DNA from: Streptomyces sp. CB09001
GTDB lineage: Bacteria; Actinomycetota; Actinomycetes; Streptomycetales; Streptomycetaceae
Reading direction: 5' to 3'
Assembly: GCF_003369795.1 (NCBI RefSeq)
Contig: NZ_CP026730.1
Span: 1,736,001-1,800,000 of the forward strand
DNA: 64,000 bases
A model generated the notes under the pieces. That model saw nothing but the letters and a program-made list of their open reading frames with translations. It made no database searches and was not told the origin of the DNA. This document shows positions 35,957-64,000 of this stretch, piece after piece; position 1 is the first letter of the stretch; the number at the start of each line of letters is the position of its first letter. The translations under genes were made by a program, and so were the position numbers.

Positions 35957-36363
35957 GGCAGACGAGTCGGGCTGTACGCCGGGTTCTGTTCCGACGGGGC
36001 CTCGCGGTCCCGTCGGTGACGGCCATCCATCTAGGACCGGCGTTGCCACCGGCCTCCAGCGGTCTACCCGCGGACTCGGGCGGGCAGCCCTCGATCGTCC
36101 GCGCAGAAGCACCGGGGTGCTTCCTTCTTGACCTTGCTCCGGGTGGGGTTTACCTAGCTGCCCAGGTCGCCCTGGGCACTGGTGGTCTCTTACACCACCG
36201 TTTCACCCTTACCGGGGGCCGAGGCCTCCGGCGGTCTGTTTTCTGTGGCACTGTCCCGCGGGTCACCCCGGGTGGCCGTTAGCCATCACCCTGCCCTGTG
36301 GAGCCCGGACGTTCCTCGGGAAGTCCCGTGAAGGACTCCACGCGGCCGCCCGCCCGGCTCGTC
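35957..36363 (-). ncRNA. rnpB: RNase P RNA, type A (actinobacterial)
   Basis: Catalytic RNA of RNase P, which cuts 5' leaders from pre-tRNAs. On the minus strand the universally conserved blocks appear in order: GAGGAACGTCCGGGCTCC near the 5' end, ACAGAAAACAGACCGCC, GGTAAGGGTGAAACGG, the AGATGGATGGCC region, and ACAGAACCCGGC with the GCCCGACTCGTC tail. P1 is GACGAGCCGGGC (36363-36352) paired with GCCCGACTCGTC (35972-35961) with one mismatch. Size near 400 nt fits Streptomyces. Ends are placed to within a few bases. Confidence 0.95.
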
Positions 36364-56141: not shown

Positions 56142-57239
56142 TCAGACGCAGCAGTCGGGGTCCAGGCCCCGGGGCAGCCGCTCGCCCGCGAAGACCTGGC
56201 AGGTGGCCTCGTGGCCGCCGAGCGCGGCGACGGCCAGGAGCAGGGAACCGGCCGTCCACGCGGTCAGTTCGCGGGGCCAGACCGTCTCGTCCTCGAAGAC
56301 GTAGCCCGTCCAGTACAGGCCGCTGTCCGGATCCCGCAGGTGCTGGATGGACTGGAGGATCTCCAGGGCGTGGTCGGACTCGCCCACCGCCCACAGGGCG
56401 AGCGCGAGTTCGGCCGACTCGCCGCCCGTCACCCACGGGTTGGGGACGACGCAGCGCACGCCGAGGCCCGGGACCACGAAACGGTCCCAGCTCTCCTGGA
56501 TGCGGGACCTGGCCTCCGTGCCGGTCAGCGCGCCGCCGAGCACCGGGTAGTACCAGTCCATCGAATAGCGGCCCTTGTCCAGGAAGCGCTCCGGGTGGCG
56601 GCGGATGGCATGCCGCAGCGCGCCCGCCGCCAACTCCCAGTCGGGCTGCGGCTCTTCGCGCTGCTCGGCGATGGCGAGCGCACAGCGCAGGGCGTGGTGG
56701 ACGGAGGAACTGCCGGTCAGCAGCGCGTCGGTGGTGTCGGTGCCGTCGTCGCCCCGGCGCCAGCCGATCTGCCCGCCGGGCTGCTGGAGGCGCAGCACGA
56801 ACTCGACGGCCGCGTGGACGACGGGCCACATCCTGTCCAGGAACACGTCGTCGCCGGTGGCGAGGTAGTGGTGCCAGACGCCGACCGCGACGTACGCGAC
56901 GAAGTTGGTCTCCCGCCCTCGGTCGGTGACGTCGGCGAAGTCCCCGTCGGCGTAGGCGGCGTACCAGGAGCCGTCCTGGTTCTGGTGCCGGGCCAGCCAC
57001 GCGTAGGCCCGCTCGGCGGCCTCGTGCTCGTCGGCCGTGTCCAGGGCCATCGCGGCCTCGACGTGGTCCCACGGGTCGAGGTGGTGCCCGCGGAACCACG
57101 GGATGGCGCCGTCCTCGCGCTGGACGGCGAGGATGCCCCGGACGGTCGCGGCGGCCTCGTCGGCGGTGAGGACGCCGGGCAGGACGAGGTGTTCGGTACG
57201 CGGGGTGCGGGGTGTGCCGGGGGTGCGGGGCGCGGTCAC
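56142..57239 (-). CDS. Alpha/alpha-toroid (prenyltransferase/squalene-cyclase-like) protein
   Basis: 365 residues of repeated helix pairs with QxDG-type turns: VQREDGAIPWFRG, ARHQNQDGSWYAAY, RLQQPGGQIGWRRG, ILQSIQHLRDPDSGLYWTGY. The fold is that of terpene cyclases and glycosidases; no DXDD cyclase motif is visible, so a sugar-processing or binding role is as likely. C-terminus ends PDCCV. The GTG start overlaps the methyltransferase stop (GTGA), so it is the last gene of a GT-MT-toroid operon controlled by a KstR-type site. Confidence 0.8.
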   Translation of the reverse strand: MTAPRTPGTPRTPRTEHLVLPGVLTADEAAATVRGILAVQREDGAIPWFRGHHLDPWDHVEAAMALDTADEHEAAERAYAWLARHQNQDGSWYAAYADGDFADVTDRGRETNFVAYVAVGVWHHYLATGDDVFLDRMWPVVHAAVEFVLRLQQPGGQIGWRRGDDGTDTTDALLTGSSSVHHALRCALAIAEQREEPQPDWELAAGALRHAIRRHPERFLDKGRYSMDWYYPVLGGALTGTEARSRIQESWDRFVVPGLGVRCVVPNPWVTGGESAELALALWAVGESDHALEILQSIQHLRDPDSGLYWTGYVFEDETVWPRELTAWTAGSLLLAVAALGGHEATCQVFAGERLPRGLDPDCCV

Positions 57240-61084: not shown

Positions 61085-61205
61085 CGGCGTCGTCATCACC
61101 CGTACGGGGGGAAGCCGGTGCAATTCCGGCGCTGACCCGCAACCGTGAGCCGCCCGCCGAGCCTCCCCCGAGGCTCCCGGACGGTGAGCCGGACTGCCCC
61201 GCACG
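61085..61205 (+). ncRNA. Cobalamin (adenosylcobalamin-type) riboswitch
   Basis: It contains the class core GGGGAAGCCGGTGCAATTCC, then GGCGCTGACCCGCAACCGTGAGCC, a variable GAGCCTC/GAGGCTC arm, and the closing GAGCCGGACTGCC B12-box-like segment. Order and spacing match Streptomyces B12 riboswitches such as those before cobalamin synthesis and uptake genes. It lies in the 5' leader of the toroid-EcfT operon, so high B12 should turn the operon off. Boundaries are approximate to 10 nt at the 5' side. Confidence 0.93.
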
Positions 61206-61221
61206 GATGTGACCGGCTCAC

Positions 61222-61250
61222 GTGCCCGGCGCCCGCCGGCGCACGGGCAC
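61222..61250 (+). terminator. Expression-platform hairpin after the riboswitch
   Basis: GTGCCCG / CGGGCAC outer stem plus GCGCC / GGCGC inner stem with one bulge. Very stable; ends 79 nt before the ATG. Either an intrinsic-type terminator or part of the switch. Confidence 0.6.
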
Positions 61251-61328
61251 CGTCGAGGCATACGGGGCCGAGCCGCCGGGGGTGCCCCGTGCTGCCGGAC
61301 CCCGCACAGGGAAAGGCACCCGCCGATC

Positions 61329-62588
61329 ATGAACGTCCGCCGTCGCAGCAGCGCCGCGGCTCTGGCCGCCATAGCCGTGATCGGCGCCGCCACCGCGCCC
61401 GCGGTCGCCGCCGATCCGTCGCCGTCCTCCGCCCCGTCCAAGACCGCACCCGCCGGGCTGTACGGGAGCACCGACCCCCAGTACGACGGTGTCTGGCGCC
61501 AGTCCCTCGCGCTGCTCGCGCAGGACACGGCGGGCGTGGTCCCGTCCTCGACGGCCGTGAAGTGGCTCACGGACCAGCAGTGCGCGAACGGCGCCTTCGC
61601 CCCGTTCCGCGCCGACCCGGCCAAGGCCTGCGACGCCAAGACGCCGGTCGACACCAACAACACGGCCGCCGCCGTCCAGGCCCTGTGGGCCGTCGGCGGG
61701 CACGGCGACGTGATCGAGGAAGCCCTCGGCTGGCTGAAGTCCGTACAGAACGAGGACGGCGGCTGGGGCTACGTCCCCGGCACCCCCAGCGACGCCAACT
61801 CCACCTCCGTCGTCATCGGGGCGCTGGCGGCCACGGAGACGAACCCCGAGGACGTCGAGAAGGGCGGCAAGTCCCCCTACGACGCCCTGCTGACGTTCGC
61901 CCTGCCCTGCGCGAAGGACAAGGGCGCGGGCGCCTTCGCCTTCCAGCCGGACAAGGACGGCAAGCTGCTCCCCAACGCGGACGCGACCGCCGCGGGTGTC
62001 CTCGGCGCGCTCGGCGAGGGCCTGGTCGCCGAGGCGGGCAAGAAGACCGGTGCCGCGTCCTGTGCCGACGCGGACCAGCCCGACCGCGGGCGCGCCGCCG
62101 CCAACGCCGCCGCGTATCTCACCGACACGCTCGCCAAGGACGGCCACCTCGTCTCCGCCCTCGGCGGCTCCGCCGACCAGCCCGACTACGGCAACACCGC
62201 CGACGCGGTCGTCGCCCTCGCCGCACAGGGCGGCGCGGACAAGGTGGCCGAGCCGCTGGCCTGGCTGAAGAAGAACGCCGCGAAGTGGGCCGGGGAGAGC
62301 GGTCCGGCCGCCTACGCCCAGCTGATCTTCGCCGCCCACGCCACGGGCACCGACCCGCGTGAATTCGGCGGCACGGACCTGGTCGCGAAGCTGAACGCGA
62401 CGGGACCCGCTCCGCAGGGCACGACGGCCAAGGACACCGCGACCGCGAACGACGACGAGAAGACGAAGGACGAGAAGAACGACGACGACTCCCCCTTCGG
62501 CGTCTGGTGGTTCGTCGGCGTCTGCCTGCTCTTCGGCGTCGGCATCGGCTTCCTGCTCAGCAACCGCAACAAGAAGCAGCAGCCGTGA
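61329..62588 (+). CDS. Secreted, membrane-anchored alpha/alpha-toroid protein (candidate cobalamin-binding)
   Basis: 419 residues. Signal peptide MNVRRRSSAAALAAIAVIGA...AVAA (cleavage near 27). About 45-355: prenyltransferase/squalene-oxidase-type helical repeats (WLTDQQCANGAFAPF, WLKSVQNEDGGWGYVPG, NTADAVVALAAQGG). Charged, disordered stretch (about 365-390), C-terminal helix SPFGVWWFVGVCLLFGVGIGFLL and a basic stop-transfer, so it is anchored outside. The same alpha6/alpha6 barrel forms the first domain of human intrinsic factor and transcobalamin. GGGAAAGG lies 10 nt before the ATG. First gene after the B12 riboswitch; GTGA overlap with the next gene. Confidence 0.88.
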   Translation: MNVRRRSSAAALAAIAVIGAATAPAVAADPSPSSAPSKTAPAGLYGSTDPQYDGVWRQSLALLAQDTAGVVPSSTAVKWLTDQQCANGAFAPFRADPAKACDAKTPVDTNNTAAAVQALWAVGGHGDVIEEALGWLKSVQNEDGGWGYVPGTPSDANSTSVVIGALAATETNPEDVEKGGKSPYDALLTFALPCAKDKGAGAFAFQPDKDGKLLPNADATAAGVLGALGEGLVAEAGKKTGAASCADADQPDRGRAAANAAAYLTDTLAKDGHLVSALGGSADQPDYGNTADAVVALAAQGGADKVAEPLAWLKKNAAKWAGESGPAAYAQLIFAAHATGTDPREFGGTDLVAKLNATGPAPQGTTAKDTATANDDEKTKDEKNDDDSPFGVWWFVGVCLLFGVGIGFLLSNRNKKQQP

Positions 62589-63244
62589 CGCCCCGCCGCC
62601 TCGTCCCTCTGCTCCTGGCCGCGTTCCTGCTGATCGGGACCGCGGGCCAGGCGCAGGCCGCCGGTTACCGCTACTGGTCCTTCTGGGACCGCGACGGCGC
62701 GCAGTGGGTCTACGCCACCCAGGGGCCGTCCATGGCCCACCCCTCCGACGGAGACGTCCAGGGCTTCCGCTTCGCGGTGAGCGAGAACTCGGGCGACGCG
62801 GCCCAGCCGCGCGGCACGGCGGACTTCGCGTCGATCTGCGCGAAGACCCCGGCCGAGGACGGCACCAAGCGGGTGGCACTGGTCCTCGACTTCGGCACGG
62901 CCCCCGACGCCCCGTCCGGCGAGACCCCGCCCGCCCCGCGCACGGCCTGCGCCCAGGTCTCCCCCGACGCGACCACGGCCGACGCCCTGGCCGCCGTCGC
63001 AGACCCCCTCCGCTACAACACCAACGCCCTGCTGTGCGCGATAGCGGGCTACCCGAAGTCGGGCTGCGGCGAACAGGTGTCGCAGCGGGAGAACCGGACG
63101 ACCACGGCAGCCCCGGAGGCAACGGCTGACCAGGGAGACGAGAACGGCCCGTCGATCGGCCTTTACGCGGGCATAGCGGTGGTGGCAGCCCTGGCAGGCG
63201 CGGCAACCTGGCAAGCAAGGCGGCGCAGGAATGCAACCCGCTGA
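62585..63244 (+). CDS. Secreted anchored protein of the SCO2322 family
   Basis: 219 residues. Signal peptide RRLVPLLLAAFLLIGTAGQAQA. Extracellular domain AGYRYWSFWDRDGAQWVYATQGPS, then a beta-rich region and two Cys pairs (about SICAK/TACAQ and LLCAI/GCGEQ) that may form disulfides. C-terminal helix GLYAGIAVVAALAGAATWQ with RRRR stop-transfer. I recall this family being named after an S. coelicolor locus next to an ECF transporter; role unassigned. GTG overlaps the toroid stop; its end overlaps ecfT by 14 nt. Confidence 0.85.
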   Translation: MTPRRLVPLLLAAFLLIGTAGQAQAAGYRYWSFWDRDGAQWVYATQGPSMAHPSDGDVQGFRFAVSENSGDAAQPRGTADFASICAKTPAEDGTKRVALVLDFGTAPDAPSGETPPAPRTACAQVSPDATTADALAAVADPLRYNTNALLCAIAGYPKSGCGEQVSQRENRTTTAAPEATADQGDENGPSIGLYAGIAVVAALAGAATWQARRRRNATR

Positions 63245-64000
63245 GACTGCGGGCAATCGTGCCGCTGGGGCGGCACGGGTGGGCGCAGGCGGCACCCTGT
63301 CAGCGCCGGGAAGCGCCCGCACCCCCGCCCGCCACCAGCGCCGGGGCGCCCTGCACCCCGGCGCCTGGTGGCTCTGGGCGCTAACCCTCGGCACCGCCGC
63401 CACCCGCACCACCAACCCCCTCCTCCTCACCCTCCTCATCACCGTCTCCGCGTACGTCGTGGTCACCCGCCGCCCCCACGCCCCCTGGTCCCGCTCCTAC
63501 GGCGCCTTCGTCAAGCTCGCCCTCGCCGTCCTCCTCATCCGCCTCCTCTTCACCACCCTCCTCGGCTCCCCCATCCCCGGCACCCACACCCTCCTCACCC
63601 TCCCCGAAGTCCCCCTCCCCGACTGGGCGCAGGGCATCCGCCTCGGCGGCCGGGTCACCGCGGAGGGCCTCACCTTCGCGCTGTACGACGCGATGAAGCT
63701 GGCCACCCTGCTCATCTGCGTCGGCGCCGCGAACGCCCTCGCCAACCCCTCCCGCCTCCTCAAGTCCCTCCCCGGCGCCCTGTACGAGATGGGCGTCGCC
63801 GTCGTCGTGGCCCTCACCTTCGCGCCAAACCTCATCGCCGACGTCCAGCGCCTGCGCGCCGCCCGCCGCCTGCGCGGCCGCCCGGACCGCGGCATACGGG
63901 GCCTGCTCCAGGTGGGGCTCCCCGTCCTGGAGGGCGCCCTGGAGCGCTCCGTCGCCCTCGCCGCCGCGATGGACGCCCGCGGCTACGGCCGTACCGCACA
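63231..64000 (+). CDS. ecfT: EcfT: transmembrane coupling subunit of an ECF importer (partial, runs off the right edge)
   Basis: CbiQ/EcfT-family membrane subunit that couples a substrate-binding S component to two ATPases. 256 codons visible. An Ala/Gly-rich leader of about 40 residues precedes HPGAWWLWALTLGTAATRTTNPLLLTLLI (helix 1-2 start). FRKLALAV-like helices follow (FVKLALAVLLIRLLFTTLL), then a late cytoplasmic coupling region RLRAARRLRGRPD and AAAMDARGYGR, the two Arg-containing EcfT signatures that contact the ATPases. Starts inside the previous gene. EcfA ATPases and an S component are expected just beyond the window. Confidence 0.9.
   Translation, partial: MQPAETAGNRAAGAARVGAGGTLSAPGSARTPARHQRRGALHPGAWWLWALTLGTAATRTTNPLLLTLLITVSAYVVVTRRPHAPWSRSYGAFVKLALAVLLIRLLFTTLLGSPIPGTHTLLTLPEVPLPDWAQGIRLGGRVTAEGLTFALYDAMKLATLLICVGAANALANPSRLLKSLPGALYEMGVAVVVALTFAPNLIADVQRLRAARRLRGRPDRGIRGLLQVGLPVLEGALERSVALAAAMDARGYGRTA

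Follow-up and report, generated by a model that had tools for sequence, protein, structure and literature searches.

A probable split and circularly permuted transcobalamin-like receptor encoded with an ECF importer in Streptomyces sp. CB09001

At the right edge of a 64,000-nucleotide stretch of the Streptomyces sp. CB09001 genome (the window; positions 1,736,001 to 1,800,000 of contig NZ_CP026730.1, i.e., G000:C1:1736001-1800000 of a 7.79 Mb genome on a single contig), a cobalamin-riboswitch leader is followed by three overlapping genes, which encode a toroid protein of the SCO2321 family, a second surface protein of the SCO2322 family and EcfT, a component of an energy-coupling factor (ECF) transporter. 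We consider it probable that this is a B12-repressed corrinoid scavenging operon, in which a split, doubly permuted transcobalamin-like receptor feeds an importer of the ECF-CbrT type. The NCBIfam titles of the two surface protein families, SCO2321_fam and SCO2322_fam, name no function, and we propose one here.

The operon and its leader

An initial annotation of the window, made from its sequence, had described a cobalamin riboswitch leading overlapping genes for a secreted and anchored toroid, a second secreted and anchored protein of the SCO2322 family, and EcfT, and had pointed rightward for EcfA and an S component. These gene models held up and the missing parts were found where they had been anticipated. 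Beyond the window the operon extends for 2.97 kb with the rest of EcfT, a fused EcfA-EcfA and the S component, giving a complete ECF set (EcfT, two ATPase domains and S component) in order and as one unit. The toroid gene matches NF053823 (SCO2321_fam) at E 2.9e-184 and 612.6 bits, against a curated cut-off of 300, and the second protein matches NF040672 (SCO2322_fam) at E 3.4e-70 and 235 bits (curated cut-off 85), as well as the GPS-CTERM anchor model (E 2.4e-9). EcfT matches Pfam CbiQ (E 1.3e-8 to 3.7e-8), the fused EcfA-EcfA holds two ABC_tran domains (E 9.3e-54), and the S component matches Pfam ECF_trnsprt exactly at the cut-off of 30.7 (E 3.9e-7).

The start codons of the toroid and SCO2322 genes were picked from homology and spacing. 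With the start codons as chosen, the toroid and SCO2322 genes overlap by 4 bases, the SCO2322 and EcfT genes by 14 bases, and throughout the five genes each start overlaps the preceding stop. The signal-like N-termini and hydrophobic C-terminal stretches of both surface proteins were read from sequence, and the toroid tail was also scored for hydrophobicity. The features are listed below with their basis (AF2, AlphaFold2; pLDDT, predicted local distance difference test).

61100-61206 (+): cobalamin-clan riboswitch aptamer (RF00174 below gathering score; covariation, 48 leaders)
61100-61109 with 61197-61206 (+): long helix of the aptamer (three-helix structure derived from the leaders)
61114-61118 with 61126-61130 (+): aptamer hairpin (three-helix structure)
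61150-61155 with 61179-61184 (+): variable helix of the aptamer (three-helix structure)
61329-62588 (+): SCO2321-family secreted alpha/alpha toroid, permuted order, with a C-terminal membrane anchor (NF053823, AF2, permutation test)
61455-62381 (+): toroid domain, approximately residues 43-351 (AF2 helices; VIA alignment range)
62499-62561 (+): C-terminal hydrophobic anchor of the toroid protein (sequence reading; tail hydrophobicity 2.32)
62585-63244 (+): SCO2322-family secreted, anchored protein (NF040672 and GPS-CTERM)
62651-63079 (+): putative circularly permuted transcobalamin-type beta-grasp (DUF4430-like) domain (rotation test, hhalign, AF2 pLDDT 85.3)
63155-63211 (+): C-terminal hydrophobic anchor of SCO2322 (sequence reading; GPS-CTERM model)
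63231-64000 (+) in the window, on to G000:C1:1800430: EcfT, 399 aa (Pfam CbiQ)
G000:C1:1800427-1802118, downstream of EcfT: fused EcfA-EcfA (two ABC_tran domains)
G000:C1:1802115-1802966, last gene of the operon: S component (Pfam ECF_trnsprt)

Rfam model RF00174 (clan CL00101) matches 61109-61214 (+) with 25.7 bits at a lax threshold (E 1.2e-4 in a search of 501 bases, 4.5e-4 when the whole genome is searched), and conservation supports a riboswitch despite this sub-threshold score. In an alignment (A6) of 48 leaders, i.e., that of the window and those of 47 Streptomyces records, the core AAGCCGGTGxxA..CCGGCxCTGAC is common to all; 13 of 61 leaders were omitted, among them seven with an insert inside the aptamer and four with a divergent core. 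The three-helix structure pairs in 92.5% of cells across these 48 leaders, against 40-54% when slid, and changes occur on both sides in 10 of its 20 pairs (shuffled mean 5.1; 10 reached by 0 of 500 shuffles); the double-sided changes number 45, compared with 10.8 after shuffling. An RNAalifold consensus, in which most helices fell at other places and the covariation term was only -0.4, was replaced by this structure, and since the structure was derived from the same sequences the covariation test is not blind. Across 80 loci, the long helix keeps at least eight of its ten pairs in 40 of 47 leaders inside the alignment and in 21 of 33 outside it, counts that stand without a computed chance level, and the core was not found in 8 of those 33.

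Relatives in other genera matched RF00174, AdoCbl or AdoCbl-II at the gathering score in 21 of 39 loci (5/10, 4/10, 7/9 and 5/10), not every one of the loci holding the operon. Judged by coordinates, 20 of these 21 switches share the strand of the genes and stand at or before the first one; that of locus L049 lies on the opposite strand. At L038 the switch stands ~1.4 kb ahead of the first gene, and at L088, on a 1.34-Mb contig, an AdoCbl riboswitch precedes SCO2322-EcfT-EcfA-S.

Two further observations concern the leader. At 61217-61290 of the window, and at the same place in the leaders of relatives, the aptamer is followed by a conserved CCGGCTC, which can pair with the AGCCGG of the aptamer or with a GAGCCG farther downstream, close to a conserved GTCGAGGxATACGG; this region looks like the switching part of the leader. 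Seven Streptomyces leaders (L155, L162, L181, L189, L192, L204 and L211) carry a hairpin-like insert of a few dozen bases (CCCCA...TCGACTTCGCTCGA...GGGG) inside the aptamer, right after CTGACC, and L162 and L178 are near-identical except for this insert.

Domain order in the two surface proteins

The SCO2322 protein is without any Pfam match, and its relatives fall into two kinds that differ in the order of their conserved blocks. In the permuted kind, which is found in Streptomyces and many genera, YRYWSFW...GDVQGFRF precedes VALVLDFG...TTADALAAV...LLCAIAGYP, and in the canonical kind these two blocks occur in reverse order. A model of the permuted kind matches several canonical relatives as two pieces with their order swapped (at L083, model positions 67-141 match residues 33-100 at E 2.7e-9 and positions 7-67 match residues 104-162 at E 3.8e-7), and in many other canonical relatives only one of the two pieces is significant. 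The profiles of the two kinds align at E 1.3e-14 over 41 columns when unrotated and at E 2.5e-27 over 98 columns when the halves are swapped, the best of 60 column-shuffled controls reaching 0.009.

The canonical profile aligns end to end with Actinomycetota members of DUF4430 (Prob 85, E 6.3e-6, 92 columns; best of 60 shuffled controls 4.4e-4), and with the rotated permuted profile the DUF4430 alignment spans 78 columns at E 7.9e-5, its best control reaching 0.008. A search with the DUF4430 profile finds transcobalamin-1 (4kki residues 353-427; E 0.0025) and transcobalamin-2 (1.7). Its matches also include the putative metal-binding protein 3u7z (7.4e-4) and a SUI1 row that seems unrelated (0.0086). 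Because this chain leads from the rotated profile through the canonical relatives and DUF4430 to transcobalamin-1, the profile evidence makes SCO2322 a circularly permuted beta-grasp of the transcobalamin/DUF4430 type, although the step to transcobalamin-1 is weak. The initial annotation had placed the resemblance to intrinsic factor in the toroid gene; it is SCO2322, rather than the toroid, that appears to carry the detectable transcobalamin relationship.

The AlphaFold2 model of the SCO2322 domain (pLDDT 85.3; predicted template modelling score, pTM, 0.82), read from the swap point, runs strand, strand, helix, short strand, strand and ends in a pair of long strands separated by a short one, its N half corresponding to strands 4-5 and its C half to strands 1-2-helix-3. 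The transcobalamin-type order given in the available text of PMC1949818 is strands 1-2, helix, insert, strands 3-4-5, with which the predicted topology appears to agree, as a reading of topology and not a superposition. P-L-R-Y at 119-122 is invariant in 71 Streptomyces-type sequences, and across genera the Arg alone is invariant. Profile A2, searched against the PDB, returned chance-like rows only.

The toroid was modelled by AlphaFold2 with pLDDT 91.3 and pTM 0.91. Its nearest structures are squalene-hopene cyclase (Z 23.9, root-mean-square deviation 2.7, 254 aligned) and drimenyl diphosphate synthase (Z ~23); intrinsic factor and transcobalamin are not among the structure matches listed, which does not exclude them, and the earlier view of a specifically intrinsic-factor-like toroid is unsupported in that form. 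That annotation had also named closer kinship to terpene cyclases with an intact active site as grounds for abandoning its interpretation, and here the outcome is divided: the cyclases are indeed closer, but DxDD, the catalytic acid motif of type II terpene cyclases, was found as DxDD[T/S] in 0 of 72 toroid family members. Four of these hold D.DD without it, and in L130, a relative outside the 72, the C-terminal tail contains DKDDT.

Compared with profiles of other actinobacterial toroids, the unrotated toroid profile gives two crossed pieces with scores of 341 and 153, and after rotation a single 308-column alignment with a score of 484. By this measure the toroid, too, is a circular permutant, in its case of the other actinobacterial toroids. 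The toroid sets were chosen by order, and the test therefore shows the nature of the difference and not an unbiased frequency. A link between the toroid permutation and a gained C-terminal anchor was considered and is unsupported, with anchor-like tails in 18 of 31 toroids beside a permuted beta-grasp against 11 of 25 others (five loci left out of the comparison).

The operon also occurs without a toroid nearby in eight genomes, and a profile search found a toroid in 0 of these 8 (positive control 6/6). The toroid thus looks optional, and an essential role for it was rejected; at L079, L080, L081, L085 and L086 the missing toroid may be due to truncation because the stretches begin at contig ends. 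Two other toroid-like matches were seen. In the window, ~56928-57056 (-) has a weak match to the toroid profile (E 3e-5) within a 546-aa frame, perhaps prenyltransferase/cyclase-like, and L039:6726-8212 (+) is a toroid gene behind a cobalamin switch, no ECF genes being detected in its 15-kb stretch.

The orders of the two proteins were compared in a sample of 61 toroid frames. A permuted toroid accompanies a permuted beta-grasp in 27 frames (10 from the own genus) and a canonical toroid accompanies a canonical beta-grasp in 17 (L044 counted twice), while four frames have a canonical toroid without a beta-grasp call, L082 among them having a canonical beta-grasp by reading. Two frames combine a permuted-order toroid with a canonical beta-grasp, namely L042, which is a real exception, and L117, a two-toroid protein (L117:8733-12419 (-); one 1228-aa frame with a canonical beta-grasp, then two toroids and an anchor). 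The remaining 11 frames had no determined order pairing. The toroid and beta-grasp orders therefore go together, with L042 as the one clear exception. Furthermore, both versions occur, at separate loci, in each of three genomes of the own genus (L048/L049, L134/L135 and L136/L137; the order call at L135 excludes the toroid).

On a tree of EcfA from 59 loci, the order label needs five changes, of which well-supported branches force only one; canonical-order loci are deepest under a midpoint root, and origins cannot be counted from this tree. With five changes needed, one forced and too few independent pairs, the coupling may reflect one historical event. A single event via tandem duplication of the gene pair was rejected by reasoning, as it would not yield the observed order. 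At L044 (G204:C1:670000-688000) there are four RF00174 matches in ~12 kb around a duplicated toroid/beta-grasp pair, with one ECF set.

The importer and its probable ligand

The family profile of the own-type S component (A7) matches that of an S type, represented by four proteins, which is found fused to toroids (A8), with Prob 99.2 and E 2.5e-19. Two A8 proteins were searched, and both match 6fnp_A (8.9e-14 and 2.5e-14). The 6FNP structure is ECF-CbrT of Lactobacillus delbrueckii, for which the available text of PMC5997447 reports measured transport of cobalamin and cobinamide. The S component of the operon thus appears linked by profile, via A8, to CbrT-type S components. At three loci (L038, L055 and L057) an S component and a toroid share one open frame, and these fusions are the strongest sign that the two proteins act jointly. 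The earlier view of surface proteins and an ECF importer under the control of a B12 switch, with a likely corrinoid ligand, is supported, and overall the initial interpretation holds in part.

From these comparisons we infer that the ligand is a corrinoid, that the two ectodomains bind it together and hand it over to the S component, and that B12 represses the operon. When corrinoid is scarce, the leader would permit expression, and the two anchored ectodomains would enclose one corrinoid between the toroid cavity and the beta-grasp, as transcobalamin does with its two domains. The receptor pair would then pass the corrinoid to the CbrT-like S component and the ECF motor would deliver it by ATP hydrolysis; in toroid-less lineages the beta-grasp protein alone may do the capture or hand-over. 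The balance tips, if only somewhat, towards a general form of this scheme in Streptomyces and many Actinomycetes, in which both receptor lobes are permuted in step and encoded by two genes, forming a split clamp that loads the ECF transporter, with the unpermuted version elsewhere in the genus.

A number of results weigh against a transcobalamin-like receptor for cobalamin. The RF00174 copy of the window lies below the gathering score of 31.5, and a default Rfam scan therefore misses the riboswitch. Neither the S component of the window nor profile A7 has a direct match to 6fnp, the link running via A8, and A7 gave no match against the PDB. The Streptomyces-only profile A4, even rotated, reaches E 0.0044 against DUF4430, no better than shuffled controls, and the final beta-grasp link is weak because transcobalamin-1 ranks between the 3u7z and SUI1 rows. 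Pfam finds no DUF4430 in SCO2322, in 10 unpermuted relatives or anywhere in the own genome. For the SCO2322 model in its own strand order, Foldseek returned no PDB match at E 0.001, and VIA-align over the 383 Foldseek candidates returned a single row with Z 2.3; these fold-search nulls, and that of the toroid, whose closest structures are terpene cyclases, would be expected if order matters, yet prove nothing.

Finally, the same genome holds other cobalamin-switch matches (labelled L003, L004, L005 and L007), which are over the cut-off at G000:C1:5780153, 1293410 and 4956444 and weak at 6987044. Read by eye, the neighbours of the first three are CbiM/CbiQ, CobD/CbiB and the large subunit of ribonucleotide reductase. 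Given the cobalamin switches at genes read as CbiM/CbiQ and CobD/CbiB, the strain is probably a B12 producer with no need of import. The importer might then carry an incomplete corrinoid (e.g., cobinamide) or another cobamide, and not cobalamin, to feed this synthesis. Such cargo would suit a genome whose switches stand at putative cobalt-import and CobD/CbiB genes, and CbrT itself also takes cobinamide (PMC5997447, in the text available), but the sequence offers nothing that separates these ligands, and we regard this alternative as unlikely, though one to be kept in view.

Less likely again is an operon that imports a different nutrient, needed when B12 is short, with the switch as a scarcity sensor as at B12-independent isoenzymes. 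The switch ahead of the putative ribonucleotide reductase gene and the lack of a direct match between the own-type S component and CbrT are in its favour, whereas the profile link to CbrT-type S components and the link of the surface protein to a transcobalamin-type domain speak for a corrinoid. That the toroid is a secreted enzyme, a relative of terpene cyclases outside the capture step, is very improbable: its closest structures and sequences are indeed squalene-hopene cyclase and drimenyl diphosphate synthase and it is missing beside some operons, but it lacks DxDD[T/S] in 72 of 72 members, is secreted and anchored, is fused to an S component at three loci, and occurs at every one of the 80 best Streptomyces-type loci among 583.

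Occurrence and comparison with known systems

SCO2322_fam matches were found in 104 of 246 genomes sampled from the class, 83 of them over the cut-off. At the level of the phylum, 84 of 246 sampled genomes have a SCO2321_fam match, only eight being over the cut-off and all of these from the own genus. Pfam DUF4430 matches occur in 42 of 246 genomes of the phylum. In a census of 51 loci, chosen by SCO2322-type matches with one per other genus of the class survey, EcfT, EcfA and S are present together in 39 and all five parts in 27, several others lying on short contigs. A second set was built on EcfT and comprises the best 80 of 583 loci (79 Streptomyces records and one Kitasatospora record); toroid and SCO2322 are both present in all 80, upstream of EcfT in the rows with positions listed.

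Other features of the surroundings are an aggregation-promoting-factor-like protein, which follows the operon after a gap, and RNase P RNA class A (RF00010, 288.7 bits) at 35959-36361 (-) of the window. At L002:7297-13101 (-), downstream of the operon, there is a very large protein named by eye as YD-repeat (Rhs-like) with a Hint-like stretch.

A corrinoid receptor and importer of the kind proposed here would give a function to two families without functional titles, one of which matches 104 of the 246 sampled class genomes, and would make a concrete prediction of the way in which many Actinomycetes scavenge corrinoids, small-genome lineages included. Parallel permutation of two adjacent genes, L042 being a locus where only the toroid is permuted, would be a rare and testable case of coupled fold rearrangement, and one that illustrates how a known domain family can escape profile libraries after permutation and divergence. 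If true, the system is an internally rearranged prokaryotic counterpart of intrinsic factor.

In the open-licence literature, so far as its texts were available, we did not find SCO2322-SCO2325 named, and SCO2321 appears only in a paper on skin delivery (PMC9237094), where the signal sequence of this S. coelicolor 'hypothetical protein' is the source of a synthetic skin-delivery peptide; it corresponds to 61329-61412 of the window. Nor did we find there an identification of SCO2322 with a permuted beta-grasp, the division of the receptor between two genes, the permutation of the toroid, the coupling between the permutations or the fusions of S component and toroid, which are added here. The general idea of a toroid and a beta-grasp with CbiQ/CbiO was already published in 2007 (PMC1796856), and the distinct capture mechanism put forward in the initial annotation had, in principle, been proposed there. 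Burroughs et al. suggested that toroid and transcobalamin-like proteins, encoded with CbiO/CbiQ genes in Gram-positives and some archaea, scavenge B12; the words 'circular', 'permut', 'streptomyces' and 'riboswitch' occur 0 times in the text available for this paper.

The operon shares with those SLBB (DUF4430-type) systems, as described in that text, a secreted toroid and a transcobalamin-type beta-grasp alongside CbiO/CbiQ-like genes. It differs from them in having two separate proteins, both circularly permuted and beyond the reach of Pfam DUF4430, and in that a cobalamin switch precedes a complete EcfT-EcfAA-S operon. With ECF-CbrT it has in common an ECF motor with an S component that appears, by profile, to be of the same lineage, but unlike ECF-CbrT as the available text presents it, the operon has its own motor genes and surface proteins, and a direct match of its S component to 6FNP is undetectable. 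In acI bacteria, themselves unable to make B12, an ECF module behind cobalamin/AdoCbl riboswitches has been proposed as the cobalamin transporter of B12 auxotrophs (PMC5301498); riboswitch and ECF module are shared, while the available text of that paper mentions no surface protein or fold. Mammalian transcobalamin, intrinsic factor and haptocorrin likewise combine a toroid with a beta-grasp, but these animal carriers are one unpermuted two-domain chain, whereas here the pair is split and permuted, and encoded by two genes at 61329-62588 and 62585-63244.

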